From contig NZ_JTCM02000060.1 in the NCBI RefSeq assembly GCF_000817785.2, positions 1-39,226 on the forward strand: a DNA stretch of 39,226 nt. Direction: 5' to 3'. Positions 470 through 35,004 of this stretch are shown here, piece after piece (position 1 is the stretch's first letter; each line of letters begins with the position of its first letter). This stretch comes from Hassallia byssoidea VB512170. Its GTDB lineage: Bacteria; Cyanobacteriota; Cyanobacteriia; Cyanobacteriales; Nostocaceae. The notes under the pieces were generated by a model, which worked only from the letters and a program-made list of their open reading frames with translations, had not been told where the DNA came from and did no database searches. Both the position numbers and the translations under genes were made by a program.

Positions 470-3400
470 TTATATTTCCTCGTCGAAGTCGTCTTCTTCC
501 TCGTCTTCCTCGTCTTCTTCAAAATCGTCTTCTTCAACAAGGTCGCCAACTTCATCAGCAATCATCAAATCATCCTCATCATCTAAGATTGACGACGATT
601 CTGTACGTCTACCGCCAAATCCTTCTGCCCCAAGTCCAGGAGAATCCAAATTATAAGCGCGAGCTGTGCGGTCATCTAACACCATATCCATCGGGTCATC
701 GACTTCATCCAATACGCTGCTGCTGTCTGCGCTTCCATAGTCGTCAACTATACCCGTCTCTTCATAGGCGTTATACCCAGTACCGGCAGGAATCAATCGC
801 CCGATAATTACGTTTTCTTTCAAACCGCGCAACCAGTCAGATTTACCTTCAATTGCCGCTTCCGTCAACACCCGCGTTGTTTCTTGGAATGATGCCGCCG
901 AGATAAAGCTGTCGGTATTCAATGATGCTTTGGTAATCCCCAATAATACTGGGGTATACTGCGCCCTCGCACCGCCGGTGATTGCCATTGCTTCATTCAC
1001 CTGCTCAATTTGCCGCAGTTCTACCAACTCTCCGGGCAACATCGTTGTGTCACCCCCATCATCTACCCGCACTTTCGCGGTCATCTGCCGCACAATCACT
1101 TCGATGTGCTTGTCGGCAATATCAATTCCTTGAGATTGATACACCATTTGCACTTCGTTCACCAAGAAAGTCTGCACCTTCTGCAAAGCAAGACTTGCAC
1201 AAGCATACACCCCATCTTCAGAACCAAGACTAAAGAACACCTCCAAAATTTCGTGCGGATTGGCAGGACCGTCACTCAACGGCTCTCCTGCTGCGACGGT
1301 CGCACCATCTGTCAGCACCAAATTTTGCCCAGGTCCTAAAGGATAATCGGTGACAACACCATTCGGCTCGATGACTTTAGCAGCGATCGCCTCATCACCA
1401 TCACCATATACAACCGATACTTCCCCGGCTCTCTTTGCCAAAATACACGCCTCTTTTGGCTTGCGTGCTTCTAGCAATTCCTCAATTCTCGGCAAACCTT
1501 GAATAATGTCTCCCGTCTTCGCCCGTTCAAACACCAACAACACCAAATTATCACCGCGTTGCACCAAATCCCCATCCTCTATCTGCAACACCGCTCCCGG
1601 CGAAACTCGATAAGGACGACCAATGCGAATCGACACAGTGTAAGAAGAGGCAGGGGGGAAGGGGGCAGGGGGCATGGGGGAAGAGGGGGAAGAGGCAGGG
1701 GGCAAGGGGGAAAGATTTCTCTCTTCTGCTCCCTGCTCCCTGCTCCCTGCCCCCTGCCCCTCTCCCTTCTTCACTTCCAGCACTTGCCCAGACAAAGGAG
1801 CAAATACTCCTGGGGCAATTTCCGAACCCTCTACCAGCAAGTCCCCCTTCTTCACCTTCGGCGCACTTGTCGTGTTCACCGTCACCATGTCCGTATGACG
1901 CAACACCAAACAGCGACGCACTGTTTCGCTTCCTTTTTGCACTCCCCGGACAATACCCCCCTCCTTACACAAAATTTGGGTACGGGCAACTACAGCACCA
2001 GGAGCGATACTTGCTTGTGCTTCCACCTCCAAACTCGTAGTCGTGCTACCTTGAGTCGCATCGGCGGTAATGTCGCGACGCACTATCAAAGATTCCAAAA
2101 TCACCAATTGCAAACGAGAAGTTTCCGAACCCTCACCATCACTCAACAACTCAATATCCGCTGCTAATGGCGAAGCGTTGTGGTCGGCGTCACCCTCAGT
2201 CTCAATTTCCAACACCAGTTGCGTCCGCAGCAACTCCACGCCTTCCACCGACTTAACCCGCTCAGAATCTTTATAAGGCAGTCGTTGCACCGCCCGCAAC
2301 TCAATACTGCGCCCCGTCTGCTGACTAACCGATGTCGTTGAAGGCACATCCGGATTATTCGGTACCGCGAACTCTTCTACCGGACGACTCAGCAGCGCAG
2401 GACCTTCTGGCGACTCTATATATTGGATGTAGCGCAGTTCGCTCACCACTTGCCCCAATAACTCCTCACCCGGCTGAACAAAAGTATTATCTCGTCCAAT
2501 CACCGCTTCCGGGTCGTCCACCATCAGCAGTTCTCCGGGCTTAATCACCACCTCCCTCAAAATGTCGTTTTTCTGGGTGACTTCCACCACGCCGTTGTTT
2601 GATGCGAATATATCCTTAACAACTTCTGTGCCAGCCTCCACATACTGACCGTCTTCCACCAACAGCAGCGATATATCTTTATTTACCTCATGAGTTTCTT
2701 CCGGAATCCACAATAATGTGCCTCCTTGAACTACCTCATAACCCAGCTTCGCCTTGCCTTTTTTCTGCACCTCCACACCGGCGTATTTCAACAACCCACC
2801 TGTATTGGTGCGATAGCGATCGTCAATTAACTCCGCCACAACTTGACCATTTTGCACTTTTGTGCCTGGAGTTGCTCTGAGGTTAAAGACTTGGTTGTGA
2901 GCAGTGGAAATAAGGTAATTATTGCGACCTTGGGAACTTTGCACCGTCACCGTTGCCTGATCCAAAACCACACTAGCGGTGATAATCTCAATTTCCCTAG
3001 TACTCTTACCCACTTGCGCTTCTGGCAAGCGGACTATACCGCCATGTAAAGTAGTTAACTTGGTTTCTGCCAAGACACCATTTGTCTCAATTGCATCACC
3101 ATTATTCACTACCAACTCCGCTCCAGGTGGCAAGTTATATACTTCCCCAGACAAAATCCAAATCAAACCACCCCGCGCCGCTGTGGTCGTTGTGTTGCCT
3201 TGACGGTCTGTTTTTTGCTCTGGCACCACTTCCGCAAACTGCACTTCCCCAGCCAAATCGCTGGCGACATCTTTAACAGCCTTTTCAGTATTTGCCCGAG
3301 TTGTCCGTCCGCCAAGTGCCACTTCTGCCAGCAACTGACCAAGCTTTACTTGCTGCCCATCGACTATATATAGTGTCGAACCTTGGGTAACGGCAATTTC

Positions 3401-4594
3401 AATTGAACCAGATGTCGTTTCCAACGAAAGCGTACCGTTTGCTTCCACAAACAGCGAATCTTCCCCGTGTCGAGTGCGATATGCTCTGGTTTTCAACTTG
3501 CGCGGCAGGCGAATGGTACCATCTTTTTCGGCACGCACTTGTTTTGCTACTTCCCCGGTGAATACACCACCAGTGTGGAAAGTCCGCATCGTTAGCTGCG
3601 TCCCCGGTTCGCCGATACTTTGAGCGGCAATAATTCCTACCGCTTCACCCAAATCTACCATCTTCGCGTGTGCCAAACTCCAGCCATAGCAGTGTTGGCA
3701 AACACTACGCGCTGCTTCACAAGTTAAAGGCGATCGCACCACCACCGATTGCACGCCGCTTTTTTGAATCTCGTGTGCTAACTCGTTACTAATTGGCGTA
3801 TTGCGCGGGGCAATTATTTGTTTGGTGGTGGGATGCACCACATCTTCTGCCACTACCCGTCCCATCAAGCGCGTGCCGATGGGAATCAGGATTTTGCCAC
3901 CTTCTATCATCGCTCCGAGGGTAAGTCCCCTGGTAGTGCCGCAGTCAAATTCCCGCACAATCACATCTTGGGATACATCCACCAAACGACGGGTGAGATA
4001 TCCAGAGTCAGCAGTTCTTAACGCCGTATCTACCAATCCCTTACGAGCGCCGTAAGAAGAGATAATATATTCGGTAACGGTCAATCCTTCGCGGAAGTTG
4101 GTTTTAATCGGCAAGCCGATAATTTCCCCTTGGGGATCTGCCATCAACCCGCGCATCCCCACCAATTGGCGCACCTGGGAGATGTTACCCCTAGCACCAG
4201 AAAACGCCATCATATATACGGAGTTGAGCGGGTTAGTACTCTTAAAGTGCTTCACCACTTCATCTTTCAGCGCTTCCGATGTTCCGTTCCAAGTATCAAT
4301 TACTTTTTGAAAACGTTCTACTTCCGTAATTTCACCACGTTGATAGCGTTCTTCCGTGGCGCGAATTTCTTCTTCTGCGGCATCGAGGAGCGATCGCTTG
4401 CTTGGCGGCACCATCAAATCATCTACACTAATCGAAACTCCGGCTTTGGTGGCGTAGCGAAAGCCTAAGTCTTTTAACTTATCCGCCATCACCGCCGTTC
4501 GCGCCGTGCCACAATTGGTGAACGCCCAAGAAATTAAATTTCTCAGTTGACCTTTGTCAACGATGCGATTGCGAAAAATCAGTTTTTCAGTCAT
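470..4594 (-). CDS. rpoC2: DNA-directed RNA polymerase subunit beta' C-terminal part (RpoC2)
   Basis: This is the C-terminal half of beta', which cyanobacteria encode as a separate gene. The protein is 1374 residues from the chosen start MTEKLIFRN. Visible parts are the zinc-site cysteines (C218 and C292/C299/C302), the trigger-loop helix near 323-343 ([21 protein letters not shown] region), a very long SI3 insertion of hybrid-motif repeats, then the closing trigger-loop part with [21 protein letters not shown] near 1030. The frame stays open 31 codons further upstream, but that stretch translates heptamer repeats (MPIAQCPLP...), so I place the start at 4594. No clear Shine-Dalgarno precedes it. 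Residues about 940-984 (1644-1776) are a low-complexity Pro/Ser/Ala/Gly insert encoded by another repeat array. The C-terminus is strongly acidic ([17 protein letters not shown]). It is the last gene of the rpoB-rpoC1-rpoC2 operon. Confidence 0.98.
1644..1776. repeat. opposed heptamer arrays inside rpoC2
   Basis: The left arm (about 1645-1714) is built of GGGGGCA and GGGGGAA words. The right arm (about 1724-1774) is built of GCTCCCT and GCCCCCT heptamers. The arms are largely complementary, so the DNA or RNA could fold into a long hairpin. The array length keeps the rpoC2 frame open. The encoded stretch, rich in Pro, Ser, Ala and Gly, interrupts the SI3 region between LEVKKGE and [11 protein letters not shown]. 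The same architecture appears in intergenic positions elsewhere in the window. Confidence 0.85.
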
Positions 4595-4596
4595 TA

Positions 4597-4793
4597 GTAA
4601 TTGGGAAAAAGGTAATTGGGAAAAAGATAATTGGGAATTGGGCAATGGGCATTGGGCAATGGGCAATGGGCATTGGGCAATGGGCAATGGGCAATGGGTA
4701 ATAGGAATAAAAAGAAGCTACACGTATTTCCATGCCCCATGCCCCATGCCCCATGCCCCATGCCCAATGCCCCATGCCCAATGCCCCATTCCC
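4597..4793. repeat. opposed heptamer arrays, rpoC1-rpoC2 junction
   Basis: The left arm (about 4597-4700) carries GGGCAAT/GGGCATT heptamers. The right arm (4732-4793) carries CCATGCC and CAATGCC heptamers. The spacer holds GGAATAAA (4704-4711) and TTTCC (4727-4731). The arms are near-complementary and could pair over tens of bases. The array fills the whole space between the rpoC1 stop and the rpoC2 start and leaves the rpoC2 frame open. Confidence 0.9.
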
Positions 4794-4795
4794 TA

Positions 4796-6673
4796 CTAAC
4801 TAGCTAACGCTTCTTGGATCGCCTTGTTATAAATAACGCGACCTGGAGTTGTGCGTATATATTGAGAAATCAAATTCCCTGACTTGTCTTGTCTGACACG
4901 ACGGAATTTATACAGCAACGTCCGAGTACCATCGGTATTTTCTTCAACCTTCACGGGTTCGGTATCTGCCACATCAGTTTCTACTTCGCCATCAAACCGC
5001 ACAAATACATAAGCGTGCAAATCAACTTGCTGCTGTTCGTAAGCCATAATCGCGTCATCCAAAGAACCGAAGTATTTTCCTGCGCCCTTTGTCGCATCCG
5101 GATTTTCCGCAGTTAAATAATACGCCCCCAATACCATATCTTGGCTGGGTGTAATAATTGGCTTACCGGTTGCCGGCGACAATATATTGTTAGAGGCAAG
5201 CATCAACAACCGCGCTTCTGCCTGAGATTCCAGCGATAAAGGTACGTGTACTGCCATTTGGTCGCCGTCAAAGTCAGCGTTAAAAGCCGGACACACTAAC
5301 GGATGCAACTGAATTGCTCTACCTTCTACTAAAATCGGCTCAAAAGCTTGAATTCCCAAACGGTGCAGTGTCGGTGCCCGGTTTAACATCACCGGATGCC
5401 CTTCAATCACTTCTTCCAACACATCCCAAACACTGGGGTCGTTGCGAGAAATCAGCTTTTTCGCGGCTTTGATGTTATTCACCATACCAGAGCGAATTAA
5501 GCGATTAATCACAAACGGTTGAAATAGCTCGATCGCCATTTCTCTCGGCAAACCGCATTGGTGGATTTGTAACTTTGGTCCAACGACAATTACAGAACGA
5601 CCCGAATAATCAACCCGCTTACCCAACAAATTCTGCCGGAAACGTCCTTGCTTACCTTCAATAATGTCAGACAAAGACTTCAGCGGTCGGTTATTTGCTC
5701 CTACCACCGTCCGTCCCCGACGACCATTGTCGATCAAAGCATCCACCGCTTCTTGCAGCATCCGCTTTTCGTTTCTGACAATAATTTCCGGTGCTAAAAT
5801 TTCTTGCAGCCGCGCTAAACGATTGTTACGGTTAATTACCCGGCGATACAAATCATTTAAATCGCTCGTGGCAAAGCGTCCACCATCCAACTGCACCATC
5901 GGGCGCAAATCCGGAGGGATTACTGGAATCACCGCCATTACCATCCACTCTGGCAACGAACCAGTAGCGATGAAGTTATCAATCACCCGCAACCGCTTAA
6001 TCAGCTTCGCCCGTTTTTGTCCTTTGGCGTTACCAATTTCTTCGCGCAAATTTTCCGCTTCTTGCTCCAAGTTGATATCAGCAAGCAACCGCAGCAGCGC
6101 TTCTGCCCCAATTCCTACCTCTACACCCTGAAGCTGAGAATCTTCCGCATAAATCTGGTCTTCAATTTCCAGCCACTGGTCTTCACTCAATAGCTGTTTA
6201 TAAGTTAAAGTTTCCGCATTACCTTTGCTGAGGACAACATAAGAGTTGAAATAAACTATCTGCTCGACATCCCGCAAAGGCATATCCAGCAAAATCGAAA
6301 TGTAACTGGGGATACCCTTGAGATACCAAACGTGCGCTACTGGTGCCGCCAGTTTGATATAACCCATGCGGTGACGGCGCACGCGTGATTCGGTGACTTC
6401 CACCCCACAGCGTTCGCAGACAATACCGCGATGGCGCACTCTTTTATATTTACCGCAGTGACATTCCCAGTCTTTCGCAGGTCCAAAGATGCGCTCGCAA
6501 AAAAGCCCGTCCATCTCTGGCTTCAAAGTTCGATAATTAATCGTCTCTGGCTTAGTGACTTCACCTACCACCTGACCGTTAGGCAAAGTTCGCTCGCCCC
6601 AAGTCCGAATCCGTTCTGGGGAAGCCAAGCCGATTTTCACATAGTCAAACTGATTAGTTTGTGCGTTTCTCAT
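4796..6673 (-). CDS. rpoC1: DNA-directed RNA polymerase subunit gamma (RpoC1)
   Basis: This is the N-terminal part of beta', carrying the catalytic centre. It is 625 residues from [19 protein letters not shown], the usual cyanobacterial start. The zinc-ribbon cysteines are C71, C73, C86 and C89. The metal-binding NADFDGD motif at 465-471 holds the three aspartates that bind catalytic magnesium. The bridge to RpoC2 ends at ...[10 protein letters not shown]. The frame is open for 35 more codons upstream to a GTG at 6778. That stretch is Leu/Pro/Phe-rich and translates a CCCTTTC repeat array, so I do not include it, though a weak GAGAAG lies before the GTG. The gene sits between rpoB (175 bases upstream) and rpoC2 (about 200 bases downstream), both gaps being repeat-filled. 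Confidence 0.98.
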
Positions 6674-6682
6674 ATATTTTTT

Positions 6683-6843
6683 GAAGAGGGGCAAAGGGGA
6701 AAGGGGAAGGGGGAAAGGGGTTTTCCAAGAGGGGGAAAGGGAAAAGGAAAAAAGGGGAAAGGCGAAGAGTATCTTCACTCACTTCTCGACTGATTTTAAA
6801 TAACTCCATCCCTTTCCCCTTTCCCCTTTCCCCTTTACCCCTC
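6683..6843. repeat. opposed purine/pyrimidine arrays, rpoB-rpoC1 junction
   Basis: The left arm (about 6683-6768) is GGGGAAA-type and the right arm (6809-6843) is CCCTTTC-type with several exact heptamer copies. The spacer is 40 bases. The arms are complementary. The array removes any purine-rich ribosome site in front of rpoC1, because on the coding strand the sequence next to its start is pyrimidine-rich. Confidence 0.85.
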
Positions 6844-6848
6844 CTTCT

Positions 6849-9800
6849 TTACTCGTCGTCTTCCATCGATTCTCGCGATAGAGATTCGTAAGTTGGGCGT
6901 GGGGGAGTGCGGCGCGTTCCTTGGTCTGCCATCAAATCAACTTCTACATCCAAAGAACTACCGTCAGCTTGGGTTTCCACTTTATGCACGGCTATGTCTA
7001 ACCCCAACGATTGCAATTCTCGCATCAACACTTTGAATGATTCCGGTGTACCCGGTCGCGGAATTGCTTTGCCTTTAACGATCGCATTCAAGGCTTCGTT
7101 TCGTCCTTGCATGTCGTCAGATTTCACAGTCAGCAACTCTTGCAGCGTGTAAGCCGCCCCAAATGCTTCCAGCGCCCATACTTCCATTTCTCCAAAGCGC
7201 TGACCGCCTTGTTGTGCTTTACCACCCAAGGGTTGCTGTGTCACCAATGAGTATGGACCTGTCGAACGAGCGTGAATCTTATCATCCACTAAATGCACCA
7301 GCTTCAACATATAAGCGACACCTATCGTCACCGGTCTATCAAAAGGCTCGCCAGTCCGCCCATCAAACACCATGATTTTGCCAGGGTCATCCGGGTTATA
7401 TACCCAGTTTCTCCCCGTCTCATCTCGTGCTTCTTGCAACTTACCATGCACAATTCTTCTAGATGACTCCTCCCCATACATTTCGTCAAAAGGCGTAATC
7501 TTAAAGCGCACTCCCAAAGTGTGACCAGCCCAACCGAGCAAACACTCAAACACCTGCCCCACGTTCATCCGTGATGGCACGCCCAACGGATTGAGCACAA
7601 TATCCACCGGCGACCCATCCGGCAAATAAGGCATATCTTCCAATGGGAGGATGCGGGAAATAATTCCCTTATTCCCGTGACGCCCTGCCATTTTGTCGCC
7701 AACTTGGATTTTTCGCTTTTGCGCTACATACACCCGCACCACCATATTCGCTCCCGGTGGCAATTCGTCGCCTTGTTCGCGGGTAAATAACCGCACGTCA
7801 ACCACGCGACCTTTTTCACCATTCGGCACTCGCAATGAGTTATCGCGCACATCCCGCGCCTTTTCACCGAAAATTGCCCGCAGCAGCTTTTCTTCTGGTG
7901 GTTGGTCAGATTCACCTTTGGGGGTAACTTTTCCGACTAATATATCCCCCGCATCTACCCATGCCCCAATGCGAATGATTCCCTGTTCATCCAAAGAGCG
8001 CAAAGCATCTTCCCCAACGTTGGGTATTTCTCTGGTGATTTCCTCTGGTCCTAGCTTCGTCTGTCTTGCCTCAATTTCATATTTTTCAATGTGAACCGAA
8101 GTATAAACATCTTCCTGCACCAACCGCTCGGAAATCAAAATCGCATCTTCGTAGTTGTAACCTTCCCAAGGCATGTAAGCGACGACAATATTTTGTCCCA
8201 GCGCTAATTCTCCACCTTCAGTAGAAGATCCATCCGCCAACACTTGACCTGCTACCACCTTCTCACCCATCCGCACCAGCGGCTTTTGGTTCAAACAAGT
8301 GTCTTGGTTAGAACGCTGATACTTAGAAATCTTGTATTTAATTTCGTTTTGGCTTCCCTTAGGACGAACGCGAATTTCTGTAGCATCAACATAAGTTACA
8401 TCCCCATCAGTCCGCGATACAATCACCATCCCAGAGTCACGAGCCGCTTGCGCTTCCAAACCAGTCCCCACTAAAGGACGTTCTGGCTTCAACAACGGCA
8501 CCGCTTGCCGTTGCATGTTCGACCCCATCAGCGCTCGGTTGGCGTCATCATGCTCCAAAAAGGGAATCATGCTGGTGGCAACCGACACAATCTGCACTGG
8601 GGAAACTGCTACATAGTCAACTTGCTCAGGTGTTGTCGTTGTCCAATCTTGGCGATAACGCACCGGCACCGAAGGTCCAATAATGTAGCCGTTTTCATCT
8701 AAGGGGATATCCCCCGTCGCAGTCTGCAAATCGTCTTCTTCATCAGCCGTCATATAAACCGGCTGCACGTCAAACCGCACTTTGCCGTTTTCTACCGGAC
8801 GAAATGGTGTTTCTAAAAAGCCGTATTGATTCACCCTGGCATGAGTTGCCAACGAACCAATCAAACCGGCGTTGGGTCCTTCTGGTGTCTCAATCGGGCA
8901 AATGCGTCCGTAGTGCGATGGGTGAATATCTCGCACCGCAAAACCAGCCCGTTCTCTGGTTAATCCCCCAGGACCAAGTGCCGATAAACGGCGTTTGTGA
9001 GTCAGTTCTGCCAAAGGATTGGTTTGATCCATGAACTGCGACAATTGGGAAGAACCAAAGAATTCTTTGATTGCCGCTACCAACGGTTTCGGGTTAACTA
9101 AAGATGCCGGTGTCAACACTTCCGCATCGGATACTGTCATGCGTTCGCGAATAATCCGCTCTAAGCGGTTTAAACCCACCCGCACCTGGTTTTGCAGCAA
9201 TTCACCCACGCTTCTTACTCGGCGATTTCCCAGGTGGTCGATGTCGTCGGTGTTACCAATATCAAATTCCAGGTTGATTAGGTAATCTACCGCCGCTAAA
9301 ATGTCAACCGACGTTAATACGCGAGTTGTTTCTGGAACTTGCAAACGTAACTTTTTGTTAAGTTTGTAGCGTCCCACCCGACCCAAGTCGTAGCGTTTGG
9401 CATCAAAAAAGCGCGAATCGAGTAACTGCTGTCCTCCCAATACTGTGGGTGGTTCACCAGGACGCAGTTTGCGATACAACTCCATCAAGGCATCTTCTTC
9501 GGAAAATTGCCCTTCTTTTTCGATGGTTTTTTGGAAATATTCTGGGTGACGCAGGGCGTCAAATATTTCGTTGTCTGACAGCGAGAGTGCTTTCAGCAGC
9601 ACTTGCGCCGACAATTTGCGGGTTTTGTCGATGCGTACCCAAACTAAATCGTTACGGTCTGTTTCAAATTTCAGCCATGCCCCCCGGTTGGGGATCAAAC
9701 TAGCAGAGTAAGTGCGGCGTCCGTTTTTGTCGATTTCTGATTTGTAGTATACGCCTGGGGAGCGGACGATTTGATTGACGATTACCCGCTCGGCACCGTT

Positions 9801-24150: not shown

Positions 24151-24292
24151 ATAGAGAGTTAGGAGTTAGGAGTTAGGAGTGAGGAGTGAGGAGTTAGGGG
24201 TTAGGAGTTAGGAATGAGGAATGAGGAATTAGGAGTCAGGAGTTAATTAAAAACTCTTAACTCATAACTCATAACTCATAACTCCTAACTTT
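24151..24292. repeat. opposed heptamer arrays, cobH - TPM gene gap
   Basis: The left arm (about 24153-24243) carries GTTAGGA / GTGAGGA heptamers. The right arm (about 24255-24290) carries ACTCATA and ACTCCTA heptamers. The spacer is short and AT-rich (TTAATTAAAAACT). The arms are complementary in part. It is directly upstream of cobH and at the end of the TPM gene. Confidence 0.85.
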
Positions 24293-25103: not shown

Positions 25104-25247
25104 GGACGTTTTTATACAAATTTCAACAGTAGACGTGAAGAAGTGGTTTTAAAAGAATACGGTAAAAGTGATACTTCTTTACACTTGTTTACTTTACTCT
25201 AATCTAATGGTGTAGATCAAAGCATTGTTTGACATCCTCATTTTTGG

Positions 25248-25432
25248 GGCAATGGGCAATGGGCAATGGGCAATGGGCATGGGCATTGGGTAATGGGTAA
25301 TGGGAATAAAGCCAAATTTCTTTCCATGCCCGATGACGGCAGGTGCTGTAGCCTGTGGAACCCGTCCACCGCACAGCCAAACCTATGCCCGATGCCCGAT
25401 GCCCGATGCCCGATGCCCGATGCCCCAGTCCC
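25248..25432. repeat. opposed heptamer arrays
   Basis: The left arm (about 25248-25302) carries GGGCAAT and GGGTAAT heptamers. The right arm (25326-25430) carries CCCGATG heptamers in five near-exact copies, broken by GACGGCAGGTGCT at 25335-25347. The spacer has GGAATAAA at 25303-25310 and TTTCC at 25321-25325, the same core as in the array at 4597-4793. Confidence 0.9.
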
Positions 25433-25983
25433 TAGTCCTCAGACCATTCCTCAGTGGCAGTGGATTGAGGCAACGAATCTTCATCATCGAAATCCCAGTT
25501 AGCAGCGTCGTTGTAACCGTTGTCATTGCGGCTGCGTTGCCTCTTGGCTTCTCGTTCTCGCAACGCGATCGCTGATGAGGCATTGGGTGACAAACGGTCA
25601 ACTTGTCGCCTGGGAGATTTTTGGCGTGTAAAGGTTTTCCAGGCTGCTTTCACGCCAACAAATATGCTGCGCGTGCCTATTTGAACGTTTTGCGCTTGCT
25701 TTTTAGCACTATCGAGGCTTTGATCGACTTGTTGAACAACTTGACTAGCACTTTTAACACCTTCACTGACATCATCAGTCAAGTCAGTGATTTCCATGCC
25801 AGTGGTGCGGATAGCATTTAGAGTCGGTGGTAACTCTCGTGAGAGGGTATCAAATAATTTTTCAGCACTGCGGGCGGCTCTCGCTAGCTCCTGCAAAGCT
25901 GGTATAGCCGCTATTAAAACAGCAGTTAAACTAACGGCGACCAAAAGAATCGATAGTCCCAGCCAAAACAGGGGGTCAATCAC
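25432..25983 (-). CDS. DUF948-like envelope protein
   Basis: The 183-residue protein begins at GTG 25983. An N-terminal hydrophobic segment (FWLGLSILLVAVSLTAVLIAA) is followed by a helical domain with EITDLTDDVSEGVKSAS and VVQQVDQSLDSAKKQ, as in DUF948 proteins. The C-terminus is charged and low in complexity. It lies 11 bases downstream of the YtxH gene, likely one transcript. DUF948/YtxH pairs occur in envelope stress contexts in Gram-positives and cyanobacteria. The exact role is unknown. The 3' end falls in the heptamer array. Confidence 0.8.
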   Translation of the reverse strand: MIDPLFWLGLSILLVAVSLTAVLIAAIPALQELARAARSAEKLFDTLSRELPPTLNAIRTTGMEITDLTDDVSEGVKSASQVVQQVDQSLDSAKKQAQNVQIGTRSIFVGVKAAWKTFTRQKSPRRQVDRLSPNASSAIALREREAKRQRSRNDNGYNDAANWDFDDEDSLPQSTATEEWSED

Positions 25984-25994
25984 AGTTATGCTAT

Positions 25995-26560: not shown

Positions 26561-26588
26561 GACAATATCCTAGCTGGAATTGTTGCCT

Positions 26589-27091: not shown

Positions 27092-27126
27092 GCAATACAA
27101 GCATTCTCACAAGTCAAGTAGGATTG

Positions 27127-27540: not shown

Positions 27541-28260
27541 TCAATTTGTTCTTGCCCAGCGAGTTCCTCTCCAAATACTAATAAACAAACCACTAGCAAC
27601 TAAAGCTCCCAAATTCCATTTGACAGAAGACTTAATTAAACTTAAACCTCGAGAAGATTGAGTTGCTTCAGCTTGAGTTTTAATTTGTTTCTTCGCTTGA
27701 GAAACTTGTGACAAGACTTGAGTTTTTAATTCGTCAGGATTTTTACCTTCTAATGAACGACCTTGGCTTTTGATAAAATTATCAATTTGTTGCGGTGTAG
27801 CTTGGTTTAATTGCTTTTCAACCTGTTCGGCTTGAGATAGTTGTTGCTTAGATAAAGTGCTAATTTGAGCAGCACTTTGATTATTGAGCCGGAGAGTGTT
27901 ACCAATTCCTAAAGGAATTAGTAAGAAAAACAATAAGGCAAATAACAAAGTTAACCAAGATAATAACTTTAATATAGGGAATTCCCATTTCGTTCGCGAA
28001 TTCATTTCTCCAAAAAATACCAACACCAAACCGATTAATGGAACTGGTACTCGTTCAACCAGCGCTCCAAAAGTTTTAAATTCCCAAGCGGGGTTCATAA
28101 AGTTGGGTGGAACAAACATCTCAACGATGTCAAAAAGTGCTAATAATAGCAGACCATAGCCAAGCGATCGCAAAATACTCATCGACCCTTGCTGACTAAA
28201 AGCAAACGCTTGTAACTCTTGTACTATGGAAGTAAATCTATCACTATTTGATTTAGTCAT
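27541..28260 (-). CDS. HpsJ-like membrane protein, cyanoexosortase-associated
   Basis: The 239-residue integral membrane protein has predicted helices at about 29-50, 72-86, 99-120 and 215-231. A polar, Gln-rich coiled part (about 125-200, SAAQISTLSKQQLSQAEQ) lies between them. It resembles HpsJ-type proteins of the hormogonium polysaccharide system. Such proteins are found next to cyanoexosortases, which is the context here: it is the last gene of the minus-strand cluster PEP-CTERM protein, exosortase, associated protein. A role in surface polysaccharide or protein export is inferred from context. ATG 28260. Confidence 0.7.
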   Translation of the reverse strand: MTKSNSDRFTSIVQELQAFAFSQQGSMSILRSLGYGLLLLALFDIVEMFVPPNFMNPAWEFKTFGALVERVPVPLIGLVLVFFGEMNSRTKWEFPILKLLSWLTLLFALLFFLLIPLGIGNTLRLNNQSAAQISTLSKQQLSQAEQVEKQLNQATPQQIDNFIKSQGRSLEGKNPDELKTQVLSQVSQAKKQIKTQAEATQSSRGLSLIKSSVKWNLGALVASGLFISIWRGTRWARTN

Positions 28261-28261
28261 T

Positions 28262-28530
28262 TTGTTGGTTGTTAATTGTTGGTTGTTGGTTGTTGGTTGT
28301 TAAGTGTTGGTTGTTGGTTGTTGGTTGTTAGTTGTTAGTTGTTGGTTGTTAGTTGTTAGTTGTTAGTTGTTGGTTGTTGGTTGTTAGTTGTTAGTTGTTG
28401 ATTGTTAGTTGTTAGTTGTTGACTACTATCCACCATCCACCATCCACTATCTACTATCTACTATCTACTAACAACTATCCACCATCCACTATCCACTATC
28501 CCCTAACAACTATCCACTAACCACCATCCA
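28262..28530. repeat. opposed heptamer arrays, HpsJ-like gene gap
   Basis: The left arm (28262-28420) is a run of TTGTTGG and TTGTTAG heptamers, more than fifteen copies. The right arm (28422-28530) is made of CTATCCA, CCATCCA and CTATCTA heptamers. The arms complement only partly (CTAACAACTATCCACC words). It fills the gap between the HpsJ-like gene and the exosortase-associated gene. Confidence 0.85.
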
Positions 28531-28539
28531 CTATCCACT

Positions 28540-29193
28540 TTAAAGTTTTGGAAAGTGGGGTTGCCACCATTGATGCCAAAAAAACCAGGCGTTTTCCAGT
28601 TTTTTGTAAGCAGCTTCCGGGGTAGAATTCTGTACAGTAATCGACAAATGCGCCCATAAACAACGTTTATCTTCGATTGGCTTTTTGCCCAGTAACCAAG
28701 GCAGTAAACGTTCTGTAGGGCGATCGTATAAAGAGCGATTTTGGATAAACTGTTGATAGGTGAAAGTACTGCTGCCCTGTGGGTTAATACAGGCACTTAA
28801 ATATGCTCGTCCTTTGTCAACGCCAAGCCCGTAGTAACCTACTTTATCTTGCTGACGCACCACAGGAGAGGATGAAATCGAAGTGTATTCTTTGATAAGT
28901 TTGTTAACATCAAAAATTGTCACATAGCGCATTTCGATATTTAGGGACTGGTCTTTTTGAATGTATTGATAATGCTTTTGGGCAATGAGATTAGAATCCT
29001 TTTTAGTTAATGTAGGCTGAGAATATTTTGTATTTAACTGCCATTCTGATAATGGTACTGCATCTAGAAAAACCAAGGGGGTAAGCGTGCTTTTTTCGGC
29101 TTTGGGAAATAGAATGACTTTGCCCAAAACTAAAAAGACACCGCTAAAGGTGAGAGCCAAAAGTGGAAGGCGAAATTGTTTCCAAATAATCAT
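28540..29193 (-). CDS. cyanoexosortase A system-associated protein
   Basis: The 217-residue protein has an N-terminal membrane helix (residues about 8-28, PLLALTFSGVFLVLGKVIL) and then a soluble extracytoplasmic domain. It includes LDAVPLSEWQLN, GVDKGRAYLSACINPQG and HQWWQPHFPKL at the end. This pattern fits the family that travels with cyanoexosortase A. It is comparable to EpsI-like partners of exosortases, whose role is not biochemically settled. ATG at 29193 lies three bases inside a GTG. AAGG precedes it. Co-oriented with the exosortase gene upstream. Confidence 0.75.
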   Translation of the reverse strand: MIIWKQFRLPLLALTFSGVFLVLGKVILFPKAEKSTLTPLVFLDAVPLSEWQLNTKYSQPTLTKKDSNLIAQKHYQYIQKDQSLNIEMRYVTIFDVNKLIKEYTSISSSPVVRQQDKVGYYGLGVDKGRAYLSACINPQGSSTFTYQQFIQNRSLYDRPTERLLPWLLGKKPIEDKRCLWAHLSITVQNSTPEAAYKKLENAWFFWHQWWQPHFPKL

Positions 29194-29321
29194 CACCTTA
29201 TAGAAGACTTAGAGGATGCGAGTGAAAGTATTGTTATTAACACCAAAGCCTAAGAAACCTAACCCCCCTGCCCCCCTTCCCTAGGAGGAAATGGGGGTTT
29301 TAAAGCCTCTCTCCCTGTGGG

Positions 29322-29402
29322 GGAGCCAGTGCGTTGCGGAGCCAGTGCCGTGCGGAGGTTCCCTCCGTTGAGGCATCTGGCGTTGGGGTTCCCAAGGCAC
29401 GT
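29322..29402. repeat. GC-rich GGAGCCAG dispersed repeat
   Basis: The words GGAGCCAGTGCGTTGCGGAG, GCCGTGCGGAGGT, CGTTGAGGC and CTGGCGT occur in the same order as in 27211-27260. This is a second copy of the same dispersed unit. Confidence 0.6.
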
Positions 29403-29427
29403 TTTCGGGGGAAGCTTCCCCCGAAAA
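29402..29427. repeat. 26-base perfect palindrome
   Basis: The arm TTTTCGGGGGAAG is followed directly by CTTCCCCCGAAAA. It lies 70 bases beyond the end of the exosortase gene. On the minus strand the downstream end has only four Ts, so terminator activity is possible but not clear. Confidence 0.6.
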
Positions 29428-29497
29428 GCTGCCGAGAAAGTTGTAGCACCTGGCGTGAGAGGTTTGGAGAGGGGTTCTTCGGTAAACTTTGCGACTT

Positions 29498-30361
29498 TTA
29501 AAATATTGACTTGTGTTGTTTGTTTTTTGTTTCATTGATATTTAGTAAAAACCAGCAAAATAAACCAAATAGTATGACGGCAATCATGGAAAAAATTAAA
29601 GAACCATCTCCATGATGCCAATATTCAAATGCTTCCTGATTGCCTTTTGCGACTATAACACCCATGAGAGCAACTCGTACCCCATTGACGATAAATCCCA
29701 AAGTTGCCGCTACTATCGGCGCAAGAATTTTTTGCTGTCGATTTAGAGGAAACATTAAAATAAAAATTATTGCTAAACCCAATTGTTGGAAGATAATTTG
29801 TACACCAGAACAGCCACTAGCTACTTGTATACTTCCTGTTGGCAGATAAATGTTTACTCCAGAGCGAGTAATTTCAAAACCTGTGTACCAAAGAATAAAA
29901 GCGGCAAGTTTTGCTGTGAGTAAAGTTATATGCTTAATCAGCAATGATGGTAATAGTTTGGGTGCGCCAAGAAAAAATAGCGCCAGCAATTCTCCTTTGT
30001 ATTGTTTTAATCCACGAAAGCCAGAAGCTAGCAGAGCAAGACCAAAGGCAAGAATGAAAGGTGAGAGGAATAGAAAGCCACCAAAACTTGTTAAAGATGC
30101 GCTTTTGATAAGTACAATTGCAATGATTGATATTCCTAAAAAGCTGGGAAAAACTCCACTTTCTAGATTTAAGCTGTGGCGTTTTTCCCAAATGAGAGAA
30201 GAGACAGCAATCCAAAATAAAACACTGCTTCCTAAAAGGCTAGGAATATTTGATTTACAAGTTAAAGTTATGTGAATTGCAATTAAGCCCGCGCCTATTG
30301 CTAATAGCCAGAATTGGGCATTTTTTAAACGACTGACCGGGGTCAGGTGGATGGATTTCAT
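29498..30361 (-). CDS. crtA: cyanoexosortase A
   Basis: This 287-residue integral membrane peptidase-like protein belongs to the exosortase/archaeosortase family. About eight hydrophobic segments are visible. The catalytic residues are Cys184 in QVASGCSGVQ, Arg229 in VNGVRVALMG and His249 or 250 in YWHHGDGS. Exosortases cleave and reattach proteins that carry a C-terminal PEP-CTERM signal. The adjacent gene encodes such a protein. ATG at 30361. The order PEP-CTERM, exosortase, associated protein, HpsJ-like makes a self-contained sorting locus. The symbol follows common usage for cyanoexosortase A. Confidence 0.9.
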   Translation of the reverse strand: MKSIHLTPVSRLKNAQFWLLAIGAGLIAIHITLTCKSNIPSLLGSSVLFWIAVSSLIWEKRHSLNLESGVFPSFLGISIIAIVLIKSASLTSFGGFLFLSPFILAFGLALLASGFRGLKQYKGELLALFFLGAPKLLPSLLIKHITLLTAKLAAFILWYTGFEITRSGVNIYLPTGSIQVASGCSGVQIIFQQLGLAIIFILMFPLNRQQKILAPIVAATLGFIVNGVRVALMGVIVAKGNQEAFEYWHHGDGSLIFSMIAVILFGLFCWFLLNINETKNKQHKSIF

Positions 30362-30391
30362 GTAGATGTAGCGGTAGTTTCAGCTAATATT

Positions 30392-30745
30392 TAATAGGTA
30401 ATGGGGAATCGGTAATGGGGAATGGGTAATGGGTAATGGGTAATGGGTAATGGGGATTTTCAGGGGGGAAAAGAGGTGCATGGGAAAGGGGAAAAGAACG
30501 CTTTCCCAATTACCAATTACCAATTCGCTATTACCCTCCGGGTTCGCAGTTCCTTCAAGTCGGCATCCCCGACGGCAGGTGCTTCAAGCCGGGAAACCCT
30601 TTGGTGCAGTCGCTCATGGGGGAAACCCCCAAGACCGCGCTGCTTCTCCTGACGGAGACGCTACGCGAACACCAACGCACTGCCTCCCCAACGGACTGCT
30701 CACCAATTACCGATTCGCTATTACCAATTCCCAATTTGCTTGTTA
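30392..30745. repeat. heptamer arrays and GC-rich repeats
   Basis: GGGTAAT heptamers (about 30397-30455) face ATTACCA heptamers (about 30508-30540 and 30712-30735). Between them lie GGGGAAAAG words and a mosaic of GC-rich repeat words (GACGGCAGGTGCT at 30571, GTCGCTCATGGGGG at 30609). The region fills the gap between the exosortase and PEP-CTERM genes. No gene is supported. Confidence 0.75.
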
Positions 30746-30757
30746 AACCTGCTATTG

Positions 30758-31696
30758 TTAGACTTTGGCGGCTTCTTTTTCTTGCTTCTGGCGTTTGCGA
30801 CGTAAAGCTACACCGATACCACCGGCTGTTAATGAACCTAAGATGGTAAAAGGTTCGGGGACGGCATTAGAGGGTGGTTGTACTGTTGGACCCTGACCCA
30901 CGTTTGTGAAGTTTGAACTAATCCCTTGAGTGAAGTCATAAAAGTTCTCACCCGGATCTACATCATCAACTTGGTAAACAACTTGTTGTGTATTCACAAC
31001 GCTGTTATAGAAGCTAGTGAGAAGTGCAGCATCACTACTAGAGAACCAGCCTGTGTCAAGTGTGTCATTACGGAAACCGCCGCTACTAAAACCGGCAGAA
31101 CCAGCATTTCCATTAGCGTCGGTGTTTTGAGCATTAACACTGCTCCAATTGCCAAAGTTTAGACCATTGAGTCGCAGTCTATTGTCATTAAAGTCGAAGT
31201 CGCCTGCGGCTGTATCACCGTCATAAAGGGTAAAGCGAATGGCAGCCTGTTTCAAACCGCCTCCTAATGCTCCGGTAATTGCTGAAGTAAAACCAGTTTG
31301 AGTACCGATATTACCTGGATTGTTACTATAGAAGCCTTGGAACAGCTGATTGGCTGCTAACTGACTAGTTACCCGTGTATCGTTCAGACCAATTAAATCC
31401 AAGACAATTCCACCTACTGGGCTGATTCCAGCAGCCACCGTTCCACCTGAGGTTGGAGAAGTTAGTGTAAAGCTAGTTGCGTGCGCTGAACCAGCTACTA
31501 CACTCATTCCCAGTACAGTGGTAGTGCCATATGCAAAGAGGCGAATGAACGACTTCATTGTTGCTAGTTTCATACTAGCTTTGCTTATGCTCAGTCTGGA
31601 TGTGCCTTGACTAACATTCCCCAGTCTTTCCACAGCAATAGATTTTGCTTTAGAACCAGCTTTGCGTAACTTATTTCTAACTTGAAATCTTGTCAT
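30758..31696 (-). CDS. PEP-CTERM sorting-signal protein
   Basis: The 312-residue exported protein ends with the sorting signal: VPEP at 279-282, a hydrophobic stretch (FTILGSLTAGGIGVAL) and a basic tail (RRKRQKQEKE). The mature part is rich in Asn, Gly and Ser with FNDNRLRLNGLNFGNWSSVN-type repeats. The start at ATG 31696 has GGAAG eight bases upstream. The N-terminus before the hydrophobic signal is long (about 45 residues), with the signal core at about 55-73 ending AHA. Later ATGs (31573, 31558) would give a normal-length signal but lack a ribosome site. It is the likely substrate of the neighbouring exosortase. Confidence 0.9.
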   Translation of the reverse strand: MTRFQVRNKLRKAGSKAKSIAVERLGNVSQGTSRLSISKASMKLATMKSFIRLFAYGTTTVLGMSVVAGSAHATSFTLTSPTSGGTVAAGISPVGGIVLDLIGLNDTRVTSQLAANQLFQGFYSNNPGNIGTQTGFTSAITGALGGGLKQAAIRFTLYDGDTAAGDFDFNDNRLRLNGLNFGNWSSVNAQNTDANGNAGSAGFSSGGFRNDTLDTGWFSSSDAALLTSFYNSVVNTQQVVYQVDDVDPGENFYDFTQGISSNFTNVGQGPTVQPPSNAVPEPFTILGSLTAGGIGVALRRKRQKQEKEAAKV

Positions 31697-32251
31697 TGAA
31701 CTCACTTCCGTAATTAGGTAAAGGTTGATGGTAGATTTACCCGGTAGTGAGATTCGCTCTTTATCTCAAAGTTGCTGCACAAACTCCCGCAAGAGGCATT
31801 CACGCGGCGATAGGTGGGTGCTGCTTGTGACAATAAAGCGCAGATATGACTTCAGTCTTTAATCTGGCTTTTGCTTCGAGTTGCTGGCGATGTCTTCAGT
31901 GTTTATTCCCGAACTGCACAGTAATCAGTGTTACTAGTTAGGTAGAAAAAATCAACTAGTACGGGCTTGTCTTGATGAAATCTTTAAATTAGTGAAGGTT
32001 ACTTTTAGATATATTCACCTACCAAAAGTTAGATTTTATAAGGCTTAGAGGCTAAATTTAGTTGTTTATTGTATAAAATTTGTGTGAATACTCTTTAAAA
32101 TGTAGTAAATTACTTAGTAGTTTCTAGTCTGCGTTTTCATACTTACATGTTGCACCACAACGCCGTCACCCTAGAAGGGTGCGGCTATACGTACAAAGCC
32201 TGCGGAGGCAGGCTCTAAAATTCTTGATAATCCTTAATTTTCTCTAGTTTT

Positions 32252-32332
32252 GTAGGGTGTGTTATGCCGTAGGAAGATCGCACCATCCAGATTTTCGGTG
32301 CGTTAGGACGCTTCGTCCATAACGCACCCTAC
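32252..32332. repeat. MITE-like element with GTAGGGTG ends
   Basis: GTAGGGTGTGTTATG (32252 on) and CATAACGCACCCTAC (ends 32332) are inverted ends with one mismatch around 51 bases with internal TGCGTTAGGACGC. A related word, GGTGCGTTAAACTTCGTTATAACGCACC, is at about 27432. This is a dispersed hairpin element of cyanobacteria. Confidence 0.65.
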
Positions 32333-32387
32333 CAGATTATACTTGTATTTATTTTAAGCACTCTCCGTGCTTACTACGAAAAAAATT

Positions 32388-32412
32388 AAGGTGGGATATT
32401 ATACCCCACCTT
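32388..32412 (-). terminator. intrinsic terminator
   Basis: On the minus strand AAGGTGGG pairs with CCCACCTT around a 9-base loop and is followed by TAATTTTTTTCG. It lies 38 bases after the stop of the small conserved gene at 32451. Confidence 0.8.
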
Positions 32413-32450
32413 ATTTAATCACAACTTACACACAACTTAATACTCAGCTA

Positions 32451-32975
32451 TTATTTATGATGACCACCCAACCATTTGGCTGCTGCGATTCCCAAAACGG
32501 CTGCGACGACGGGGTTGCTGAGAAACTTGAGAATACCTGGTTGCTCGGCTAGGACTTCGCGGAAGATGTCGGGATGATTGTGATATGCGAAGGACGCGAG
32601 TTTGCTGACATCATCAGCGCTCATGCGACCGGCGTGATGAGTGGAAAGTCCGAGCTGCTGCTCTAGATGACGCTCGTCCAATCCTCTTTGCTTGAAGTGT
32701 TTGAAAAACGATCGCGCAACATCATCACGTTCGTTGGGTTTAATTTGCGCGATCGCTTTCTGCAATTCCGGTTCCATTTGGCTGGTTGGAATGCGATCGG
32801 GATGCAAAGATTTACCAAACAACTGACGACGTTCGTCTGTAGTTGTCCGTTGAGCAAAATCGTCGAAGCTTTGATATTGCTTTGATGGATCAACTGAAGC
32901 ATCATCCAATGATTCTACATTCCCTTGAGCCAAGTCGTTCATTATTTGACGCTTGTACTGTTCGCTACTTGACAC
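32451..32975 (-). CDS. conserved hypothetical protein
   Basis: The 174-residue protein starts MSSSEQYKRQIMNDLAQ if the GTG at 32975 is used. It has GGAGG with an ideal eight-base spacing. The ATG 15 bases upstream has none, so I prefer the GTG. The body is polar and helical (LGLSTHHAGRMSADDVSKLASFAYHNHPDIFRE, cited in parts). The C-terminus is hydrophobic and glycine-rich (NPVVAAVLGIAAAKWLGG), perhaps a membrane-contact segment. I recognise it as a cyanobacterial hypothetical but know no function. Neighbours are a lipoprotein and a CsbD-like protein. Confidence 0.7.
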   Translation of the reverse strand: MSSSEQYKRQIMNDLAQGNVESLDDASVDPSKQYQSFDDFAQRTTTDERRQLFGKSLHPDRIPTSQMEPELQKAIAQIKPNERDDVARSFFKHFKQRGLDERHLEQQLGLSTHHAGRMSADDVSKLASFAYHNHPDIFREVLAEQPGILKFLSNPVVAAVLGIAAAKWLGGHHK

Positions 32976-33159
32976 TTTACTTACCTCCATTATTCAGAAA
33001 GCTCATAGCTTTCTTTGTCAAATTTCCACGCAGCAACTAATTAACGTGCATTTATGTTGCTTGCTTTCACTTTTTGTTGATAATTGGGTAAATTGATAAA
33101 AACCCATTACCTATTACCAATTACCAATTACCGCGTTCCCCATGACCAATATCGAGTAA

Positions 33160-33603
33160 TTATGCGTTATACTCAATTTTATTAGTCTGAACATCATACT
33201 TAGTCGTCAAAATCAATTGCTTATCAGGCGCATATATCAGAACTGTTAAGTCTTGATTCGGGAAATTCTTCCGGAAACCTTGCGCTAAAGATTTTGCCAA
33301 GTCTCGCACTTCGTTAGGACGAACTTGAGGAGAAATCACAACGCCTAGTTTGTTATTATCACGCACGTAAGCATCACGAATTAATCCCTTGGATGATTGC
33401 ACAACCCAGTCACCAAAGGTTTGTCCTGTCGCAGTATTTCCTCGCTCTAGTTCTGCGTAAGCTGTAGTTGTACCAATTGCTGGTTGATTAGTTGTGCGGT
33501 CAAGTTGTGCTACATTACCGCTACTGCAAGCTGTACTTATTGTCAGAACTAAAATCAACACGAAAGCTGTCAAGATTTTCCGACCCCGCTGAAGCAGAAT
33601 CAT
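33160..33603 (-). CDS. small lipoprotein
   Basis: From ATG 33603 the protein has 147 residues, with GGGAGGA seven bases upstream. The N-terminus is a signal peptide (MILLQRGRKILTAFVLILVLTISTAC) with a lipobox-like TISTAC and cysteine at about 26, so it is probably lipid-modified. The mature part resembles a YhcN/YlaJ-type spore or envelope lipoprotein only loosely (VRDNNKLGVVISPQVRPNEV, LTVLIYAPDKQLI). No function is assigned. Confidence 0.75.
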   Translation of the reverse strand: MILLQRGRKILTAFVLILVLTISTACSSGNVAQLDRTTNQPAIGTTTAYAELERGNTATGQTFGDWVVQSSKGLIRDAYVRDNNKLGVVISPQVRPNEVRDLAKSLAQGFRKNFPNQDLTVLIYAPDKQLILTTKYDVQTNKIEYNA

Positions 33604-33924
33604 TTTTGTATCCTCCCAAAAATTACATTTGCGATCGGACAAAATATAGTAATCCTATCTAAGGTTTTTTAAACCTATTTTTCTATAGCAACTACACTAT
33701 ATTAACGAATCGTTTAGGATTGCTATATTTGTTATTCTTTATATCTTAAAATCGCTCTTGGTAGTAAGCATCCCTTAATTTGGGAATTTAGTCTGCACAT
33801 CTATCCTTTGCACCTTTATCCCCCCATTCAAGGGGGATAAAAGGAATGTGGGGATTTACGTTTGTCAGGCATCCAGTCAGGGAATGCACCCTATTCTACA
33901 GACATAAAGCAAAAAGCATTCTGC

Positions 33925-34107
33925 TTAGTCAATTGCTTTTTTGACGTTATCTTTTACGTCTTCAACACCGTGACGTACTTCGCTTTCAGCTTGCTTTGCT
34001 TTGCCTTCTGCTTTATCTTCTGGATCGCCGGTAACATTTCCCAGTGCTTCTTGAGCTTTACCTTCGACGTTTTTAGCAGTTGCTTTAGCGCGATCTTCTA
34101 TGCTCAT
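33925..34107 (-). CDS. CsbD-like stress protein
   Basis: The 60-residue charged helical protein MSIEDRAKATAKNVEGKAQEALG... has the repeating KA/EGKAK pattern of CsbD, a general stress family. ATG at 34107 with AAGGA eight bases upstream. A promoter is expected upstream, before the terminators at 34313. The name is a family label and no mechanism is known. Confidence 0.9.
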   Translation of the reverse strand: MSIEDRAKATAKNVEGKAQEALGNVTGDPEDKAEGKAKQAESEVRHGVEDVKDNVKKAID

Positions 34108-34312
34108 TTTTGTTGTCCTTATGAAGAATAGTTTTTATTTCAAAGCTTGTTTATAACTTTGAAATTGTTTTTTATCACTATTACAAACTAGCTTAATGTT
34201 TTTACTGTAGCCTTCCGCCACAAGATATATTAGTTATCTATGCTTAAAGAGGGAGATAAAAGAATCAACAAGAACTAAAGTACTAACAAAGCAAATAGCT
34301 AAAAAAAACATC

Positions 34313-34339
34313 CCCCGACAACAAAGAGCGAAGTCGGGG
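34313..34339 (-). terminator. intrinsic terminator
   Basis: On the minus strand CCCCGAC pairs with GTCGGGG around a 13-base loop, and a T8 run follows (34302-34309). It is the second terminator behind the 19-residue-repeat gene. Confidence 0.75.
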
Positions 34340-34376
34340 TTCTGAATAATTGTTAACTATTAGCTATATAATAAAA

Positions 34377-34403
34377 AACTCGGTTCCGCAGAAAAACCGA
34401 GTT
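34377..34403 (-). terminator. intrinsic terminator
   Basis: On the minus strand AACTCGGTT pairs with AACCGAGTT, then T6. It lies 25 bases behind the stop at 34429 and is in tandem with the one at 34313. Confidence 0.8.
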
Positions 34404-34428
34404 AATAAAGGTCTAAGTATTATTTTGT

Positions 34429-34782
34429 TTAATCCAGAAAACCCATTATACTGTCTGGATCGTCAATCATATTTGATGCTACTGGACGATCGCCCATTGC
34501 GGAGTAAGTTTGCGAAATTACTAGTCCACTTGAAGCGATTGGACGAATCCCAGAATCGTAAACACTTTCAACAACTTCCATTGTATTCTCACCAATTGGA
34601 CGAATTCCTGAAGAATTCATTGTATGAGCAACATGCAAATCACCCGCGCTAGTTGGACGTACATGAGAGATAGCTAGTGTCTCATGAACTTCTACATTTG
34701 GTGACTCTAGCTTCACTGGTTTATTATCTTGCTTTCCTGCATCTGTATTCAAGCTATTGCCTTGGTTATTTTTAACTTCCAC
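34429..34782 (-). CDS. protein of four exact 19-residue Arg-Pro repeats
   Basis: The 117-residue protein is not recognised. After a polar N-terminus (MEVKNNQGNSLNTDAG) residues 34-109 are four consecutive 19-residue units. Arg-Pro is at 42-43, 61-62, 80-81 and 99-100, exactly 19 apart. Units read like SHVRPTSAGDL, SSGIRPIGENT, DSGIRPIASSG and AMGDRPVASN. It has no signal peptide and no membrane segment. The start is GTG 34782 with GGGAG eight bases upstream. The unit length suggests a repeated beta-hairpin or a binding motif. It ends with two tandem terminators. Confidence 0.8.
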   Translation of the reverse strand: MEVKNNQGNSLNTDAGKQDNKPVKLESPNVEVHETLAISHVRPTSAGDLHVAHTMNSSGIRPIGENTMEVVESVYDSGIRPIASSGLVISQTYSAMGDRPVASNMIDDPDSIMGFLD

Positions 34783-34925
34783 TGTCGTGTCTCCCTTTAG
34801 CTTTGCAAGCTTTTGTTAAGTAAATTTTACAATAGTGAGGAGAAAAATGAATTTTTCCTTAATATTTAGAGTGTAACCTGAAAAAAGTTGCTATGGATAT
34901 ATATTTCTTCAAAAGATACATATGG

Positions 34926-35004
34926 AAAAGAGGGGGAAAGGGGAAAGGGAAAGGGGAAAGGAATAAAAAAACTTTCTTTTCTTCCGTTTACCCTTTACCC
35001 TTTA
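34926..35004. repeat. opposed purine/pyrimidine arrays upstream of uvrB
   Basis: GGGGAAA heptamers (34930-34960) face CCCTTTA heptamers (about 34988-35004). The spacer has GGAATAAA (34960-34967) and TTCC (34982-34985), as in the arrays at 4597 and 25248. Confidence 0.8.

Follow-up and report, generated by a model that had tools for sequence, protein, structure and literature searches.

The window analyzed here is the whole of a 39,226-base contig (NZ_JTCM02000060.1) of the cyanobacterium Hassallia byssoidea VB512170 (Nostocaceae), whose 7.5-Mb genome is assembled in 219 contigs. Its open reading frames (ORFs), named by eye, include rpoB, rpoC1, and rpoC2 together with other ordinary genes, and its RpoC1 is 90-99% identical to that of same-family relatives. 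Gene content and relatives suggest a filamentous, heterocystous organism. Between and within these genes lie hairpin-like elements composed of two opposed arrays of tandem 7-base units (heptamers) on either side of a loop, which are the subject of this analysis. Mapping with Tandem Repeats Finder (TRF) located nine elements, eight with paired 7-base arrays and one (E8) with a weak, mostly one-sided array; tandem 7-base arrays are present at all eight loci where the initial annotation of this DNA had described opposed arrays. The elements are as follows:

E1, 1644-1785 (arrays 1654-1760, TRF): opposed G-rich/C-rich heptamer arrays in the coding frame of rpoC2, a gene on the minus strand (named by eye)
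E2, 4597-4793 (arrays 4629-4793): hairpin of the rpoC1-rpoC2 spacer, with GGGCAAT units on the left, the loop GGAATAAAAAGAAGCTACACGTATTTCC, and ATGCCCC units on the right
E3, 6683-6842 (arrays 6687-6842): hairpin of the rpoB-rpoC1 spacer, GGGGAAA / TTTCCCC units
E4, 24156-24290: GAGTTAG / AACTCAT arrays flanking the loop AGTTAATTAAAAACTC
E5, 25247-25438: GGGCAAT / ATGCCCG arrays, with the loop core at 25304-25323
Second module, lying within the right arm of E5, 25331-25384: a small dispersed sequence, GACGGCAGGTGC...GCACAGCCAAACC
E6, 28262-28539: TTGTTRG x22.7 / ACTATCC x16.4
E7, 30385-30525: GGGTAAT array, a long loop, and a short CCAATTA array
E8, 33080-33132 (array 33102-33132): weak left arm (ATAATTGGGTAA) and a right array of ACCAATT
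E9, 34933-35004: GGGGAAA / TTTACCC arrays around the loop GGAATAAAAAAACTTTCTTTTCTTCC, upstream of a uvrB-like ORF

An Rfam scan of the window returned no match over the gathering score. The rpoC2 frame around E1 is open across 470-4687, and the orthologous place is variable in length among relatives, with other arrays there at loci L040, L049, and L056; E1 is a heptamer hairpin lying in frame within an essential gene.

The 7-base period is not a product of chance. In 179 kb of sequence from the source genome there are 57 arrays at lag 7, against 0-7 at each remaining lag between 2 and 13; a single dinucleotide shuffle gave none. A larger sample of the same genome (914,180 bases in 50 stretches, in many cases the start of a contig) contains 260 period-7 arrays, or 284 per Mb, covering 1.46% of bases, while lags 5, 6, and 8-13 gave 1-70 arrays each; the 70 and 49 found at lags 8 and 9 include, by eye, some true 8-9-base units. 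One array of 8-base units, of GGAGACAA type, at locus L271 of the source genome also has the layout described below, with the G-bearing arm first. The outgroup, which consisted of the rpo region only, contained one array in distant cyanobacteria (8 loci, 104 kb) and five in other bacteria (72 loci, 886 kb). Within the source genome, three consecutive GGGCAAT units have 34 matches (overlapping matches counted, 17 arrays) and none in a backwards control, and units are common to E2 and E5 and likewise to E3 and E9. The heptamers are thus drawn from a shared palette, and the proposal in the initial annotation that each locus has a heptamer of its own has to be given up.

The arrays of the source genome are arranged with a pronounced polarity. 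Among 84 neighboring array pairs no more than 200 bases apart in the source sample, 58 have a purine-rich array followed by a pyrimidine-rich one and four the reverse, the remaining 22 being same-sense neighbors (11 purine-purine and 11 pyrimidine-pyrimidine) that were excluded from the pair tests. Since low-GC heptamer classes of two genomes, G032 and G007, lie near 50% purine, polarity was judged not only by purine content but also by G versus C and by heptamer class. For polarity, pairs were kept when their unit distance was at most 2, the inverted comparison was better than the direct one, and the loop was no longer than 120 bases, which left 62 pairs in the source genome, 38 in the relatives' set (which also contains the source rnpB locus, L195), and 135 distinct pairs, selected and homologous loci included, for the heptamer-class test. 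With both arms counted and no purine criterion applied, the G-bearing arm comes first in all 62 unselected pairs of the source genome and in 34 of the 38 of the relatives' set. Judged by the left unit alone, 20 of the relatives' 29 classes are purely G-first. Heptamer classes with at least three pairs keep a single polarity throughout, both for the left arm (90 of 90 pairs in 17 classes, 60.4 expected) and for the right arm (87 of 87 in 15 classes, 57.5 expected). The polarity could stem from common ancestry of the classes, or from a constraint, for example on which of the G-rich and C-rich arms is transcribed first.

Only two of the 58 purine-pyrimidine pairs are contained in ORFs of at least 150 amino acids, and most pairs lie outside long ORFs. 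Spurious ORFs cross the arrays at 4554-4799, since repetition of a 7-base unit runs through three frames, and annotation may list them as proteins.

The initial annotation also had the two arms often complementary. This holds in the sense that the arms of one locus resemble each other more than expected, with a mean arm-unit distance of 1.86 of 7 positions as opposed to 2.48 when arms are shuffled between loci (0 of 2000 shuffles as low) and an arm duplex energy of -1.006 kcal per mol per base as opposed to -0.800 (0 of 5000). It does not hold in the strict sense, identical unit consensus of both arms being found in only three of the 58 source pairs.

The loops connect places that are otherwise different. 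The spacer motif GGAATAAA...TTCC, on which the initial annotation had based a common descent of three loci, is present at 4704, 25303, and 34960, and is only one among several loop types. The E5 loop core (20 positions, at most one mismatch) has eight copies in the genome and one in the backwards control; by eye, all eight are flanked by opposed heptamer arrays, with units of GGGCAAT type on the left and ATGCCC type on the right in six cases and of GGGTAAT and CCAATT type in two. The words GACGGCAGGTGC...GCACAGCCAAACC of the module nested in E5 also follow the loop at L209, L216, L232, L336, and others (by eye). A further core, GGAAAGAATTATTNCC, has 101 genomic matches with at most two mismatches and 16 in the backwards control. 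An array lies no more than 70 bases away, to the left (19) or to the right (15), at 21 of its 30 best loci. The control gave 0.029 per 70-base stretch with skipped draws counted in the denominator, which puts the actual rate at about 0.03-0.04. The left arms of these copies vary widely.

A third loop family is found in the congeners of the source genome (G001, G002, and G004). The 60-base E2 loop of G002 has 19 matches in G002, including itself and the E3 site, four in G004, one weak match (79%) in G001, and none in the source genome. For 20 of these 24 copies (15 from G002, four from G004, and one from G001) the flanks were compared, and by eye they differ from one another except in the orthologous pair L241 (G004) and L253 (G002). 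The copies share their ends, AAGA(A)GGGG in 14 of 20 cases (control rate 0.003) and CCCCT(T)CTT in 15 of 20 (control rate 0.000). Loop cores are therefore dispersed between places. The initial annotation had named the lack of a shared core at other loci as part of what would speak against its inference; since the E5 and GGAAAGAATTATTNCC cores and the G002 loop all recur across loci, that comparison comes out in favor of common descent.

At fixed sites, the hairpin persists while its heptamer is exchanged. The rpoB-rpoC1 spacer carries a strong lag-7 run in 20 of 30 genomes and the rpoC1-rpoC2 spacer in 22 of 30, with heptamers that differ between genera and also within a genus. The rpoB-rpoC1 site has GGGGAAA-type units in the source genome and G002, TTCAAAA-type units in G001, and GGGCATT-type units in G004, whereas the rpoC1-rpoC2 site has GGGCAAT in the source genome, a 14-base unit of TTGATGG type in G001, and GGGGAAA-type units in G002 and G004. 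In these swaps both arms are changed together. Arms taken from the same genome match each other better than arms combined across genomes, with scores of 16.1 versus 9.5 for the 30 E3 spacers and 16.1 versus 8.7 for 28 E2 spacers (0 of 5000 permutations in each case); split points were scanned on both sides, the null consisted of these 30 and 28 spacers, and the 21-base E2 spacer of G007 was left out. As this cross-genome null includes differences in palette, the within-genome shuffle given above is the stricter test of the arms. Beside and over the rpoC2 start codon, repeated TGACTAA units occur in several genera (L045-L055), in eight of 30 cases by a strict pattern.

The RNase P RNA gene, rnpB, offers a second such site. 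A 7-base array stands at one place, which we take to be helix P12, in 18 of 28 judged loci (L177-L206; the incomplete loci of G035 and G037 were left out), and its units differ, being of AGTTAGG type in the source genome, G002, G004, and G010 and of CAGTTAT type in G009 and G011. In G001 and G005 the units are of GGGACTA type and enclose a GGGAAAGAAT loop, the same loop as in intergenic copies. Outside the family, arrays are present in two of nine judged loci of the same order. At one more site, the source genome, G001, and G002 have a hairpin and contigs of G004 end within one; the loop and the inner arms differ, the right end CTCCCC is present in all four genomes, and a left end GGGGAGAG is common to the source genome and G004. 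The data show the swap of heptamers at fixed sites directly, as they do the dispersal of loop cores and the polarity in the source genome.

We think it somewhat probable that these elements are small dispersed hairpin repeats, copied as arm-loop-arm units and then grown, drifted, and rewritten in place. In such a unit, G-bearing heptamers would form the 5' arm and C-bearing heptamers the 3' arm, with about 10-60 bases of loop between them. Copies would reach new, mostly intergenic places as such units, a proposal we make because different places have the same loop cores, together with asymmetric arms that also recur. After arrival, the arms would grow and drift through gain and loss of 7-base units, and further copies may land inside an older hairpin, rewriting its interior and loop but sometimes sparing remnants at its outer ends. 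The sites tolerant of a hairpin would be operon spacers, a variable stretch of RpoC2, and a helix of RNase P RNA, and landing and turnover there would leave the hairpin in place with a heptamer that changes between close relatives, both arms together. Copying of whole units, nesting, and a role of pairing in persistence are our inferences from these patterns. Whatever the elements do for the host is most likely incidental, except that they would keep the rnpB helix closed.

Several results weigh against this reading. In the source genome, 144 of the 260 arrays lie outside any purine-pyrimidine pair within 200 bases, and the arm match is only modestly better than shuffled. A strong dominance of the paired layout is shown for the source genome only. 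The relatives' set includes three C-first pairs and one tie among its 38; by the left unit alone, three of the relatives' 29 classes include a C-first pair and six a tie, and in the source genome the class AACAGTC is C-first and another class a tie. By purine content, G032 has six purine-first and two pyrimidine-first pairs and G007 two and one, and the inverted unit distance is at most 2 in only six of 15 neighboring arrays of G032 and four of 11 of G007. The arm match in G032 (six pairs) is not better than shuffled (839 of 2000; 1299 of 5000). At the rpo spacers, only 12 of 30 E3 arms and 11 of 28 E2 arms score best in their row with their true partner. The order of nested units, with six cases for, one against, and 15 ties among 22, is suggestive only. 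As arms are imperfect yet closer than shuffled, and the layout is weaker in G032 and G007, we conclude that pairing is favored but loose in intergenic copies.

The evidence on movement itself belongs to the same side of the balance. No clean empty site or target duplication was found at three compared sites of G002 copies, and at E5 the resident spacer has been replaced, as compared with G002 and G004. An association with Y1 transposases or reverse transcriptases was rejected, as only one array occurs in the 20 loci around nine Y1-transposase and 11 reverse-transcriptase matches of the source genome and G002; the nine Y1 loci (three source, six G002), inspected over about 1.5 kb on each side where the contig allows, contain none. 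Transposition in the strict sense, one of the two routes of spread proposed in the initial annotation, is accordingly not supported, while the other, slipped synthesis, is seen as growth of arms at E6.

A bolder form of the preferred reading, which we regard as rather unlikely, is that of a mobile hairpin class recognizable not from its sequence but from its layout, with a period of 7 bases, the G-bearing arm first, and a loop. Machinery as yet undescribed would propagate it through a single-stranded or RNA intermediate, its arms being continually rewritten. If true, one element family would look like dozens of unrelated heptamers across these cyanobacteria, and such hairpins would replace others even inside rpoC2 and RNase P RNA.

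Alternatively, the arrays may have arisen by local slippage only, quasi-palindromic spacer seeds having grown by slipped synthesis and hairpin-templated copying with no movement between places. Growth of this kind is seen: the E4 and E6 loop regions have similar counterparts in G002 (L041 for E4) with short arms that have grown or changed in the source genome, E6 being a short seed in G002 and having 16-23 units per arm in the source genome. The free variation in unit number and the better-than-shuffled match of arms to each other would also be expected. As the whole explanation, however, we find it unlikely, since loop cores common to different places, above all the families of eight and 19 copies, put it under strain, as does the recurrence of asymmetric arms (GGGCAAT and ATGCCC) around one loop. 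Nor does purely local growth predict one polarity, as independent slippage from random seeds would yield both. The G-first polarity and the loop families linking loci therefore argue that the arrays belong to copied units and did not arise independently by slippage.

Less probable still, in our view, are selected RNA hairpins, by which operon spacers would need a hairpin for mRNA processing, stability, or pausing, any pairing heptamer would serve, and turnover would be compensated. Lag-7 runs are commoner in the rpo spacers than in general spacers of 40-400 bases, scored with 60 bases of flank added per side (106 of 393, 30 of 99, and 20 of 76 in three genomes). The concerted change of arms and the rnpB hairpin, kept with swapped heptamers, would also fit. 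However, of 52 placed pairs 15 sit between convergent and 8 between divergent ORFs, close to the background (87 and 83 among 480 neighboring ORF pairs), and pairs occur even inside rpoC2; arms are often imperfect, neither rpo spacer of G017 shows such a hairpin (by eye), and selection alone does not explain shared loops or polarity. A reading of the rpo hairpins as terminators was set aside, as they lie between same-direction genes that we take to be co-transcribed; a paper on termination (PMC13289151) does not contain the word repeat.

Ectopic gene conversion among existing arrays, which would spread heptamers and loops with no new insertions, appears quite improbable. It would account for the palette shared within a genome and for the one site with its interior replaced and its outer ends persisting, but E5 sits where G002 and G004 have no array, one junction there sharing GGGG with G002 and reading GGAG in G004. 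Finally, it is very improbable that the elements are kept as G-quadruplexes, as proposed for GGGGATT and GGGAATC arrays, with the structure of the G-rich strand conserved and pairing secondary, since units that have no G3 tract (TTGTTAG, TAGATTT, GAGTTAG) show the same layout and polarity, even though many units are GGGNNNN and Rehm et al. (2015; PMC4692102) report quadruplex formation by such repeats in vitro. Copied arm-loop-arm units that are later rewritten in place remain our preferred explanation. Another tandem repeat of the window, with 21-base units at 38022-38098, lies in the C-terminal part of a Uma2-like ORF (by eye) and is coding and unrelated to the heptamers.

Heptamer repeats, small dispersed repeats, and one site of stem swapping (P6b of the trnL intron) are already known, while the genome-wide swap of heptamers and the polarity seem under-described; no paper on either was found by title or the start of the abstract, in a search that left subscription journals mostly outside. 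The short tandemly repeated repetitive (STRR) sequences of cyanobacteria have been described as arrays. To our knowledge, they are confined to heterocystous cyanobacteria. The elements reported here resemble them in their 7-base tandem units, dispersal, high copy number, and mostly intergenic position, and differ in being defined by arms, loop, polarity, and dispersal. Elhai and colleagues reportedly described, in 2008, very small dispersed elements of Nostoc (SDR) that are often embedded in tandem heptamers. By this description, the module nested in E5 looks SDR-like, and the loop families here are likewise small, dispersed at different places, and lineage-specific; the difference is that here it is the heptamer hairpin with its loop that disperses.

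Among dispersed short palindromic repeats in bacteria, the REPIN/RAYT system has been studied in genomes that include Nostoc punctiforme (PMC3116915); the present elements differ in that the Y1-transposase matches of the source genome and G002 are without arrays. Rehm et al. (2015; PMC4692102), who also cite heptamers of Calothrix, describe for Nostoc PCC 7120 arrays of GGGGA(C/T)T among which inverted pairs are few, inverted GGGAATC repeats in Xanthomonas with 70 and 75 convergent pairs, and G-rich heptamers that are mostly intergenic and nearer to the 5' neighbor ORF. That search considered a narrow set of heptamers, whereas the one used here is blind to the unit and finds pairs to be common, less so in G032 and G007. 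Pairs whose arms differ by one to three bases could escape a search with few heptamers, which may explain part of the scarcity of pairs reported for Nostoc.

A precedent for the swap is the P6b stem of the Nostoc trnL intron, built of heptamers of Class I (TDNGATT) and Class II (NNTGAGT), in which one class has repeatedly replaced another; Kaasalainen et al. (2015; PMC4476775) give the origin of both as not known. That account concerns one locus, whereas here swaps are seen at the rpo spacers, at rnpB, and at one more site, with loop families linking loci. The G-first polarity and the loop families thus bear on the origin of the trnL heptamer stem, an old question of where the repeats come from, and give direct tests of it.

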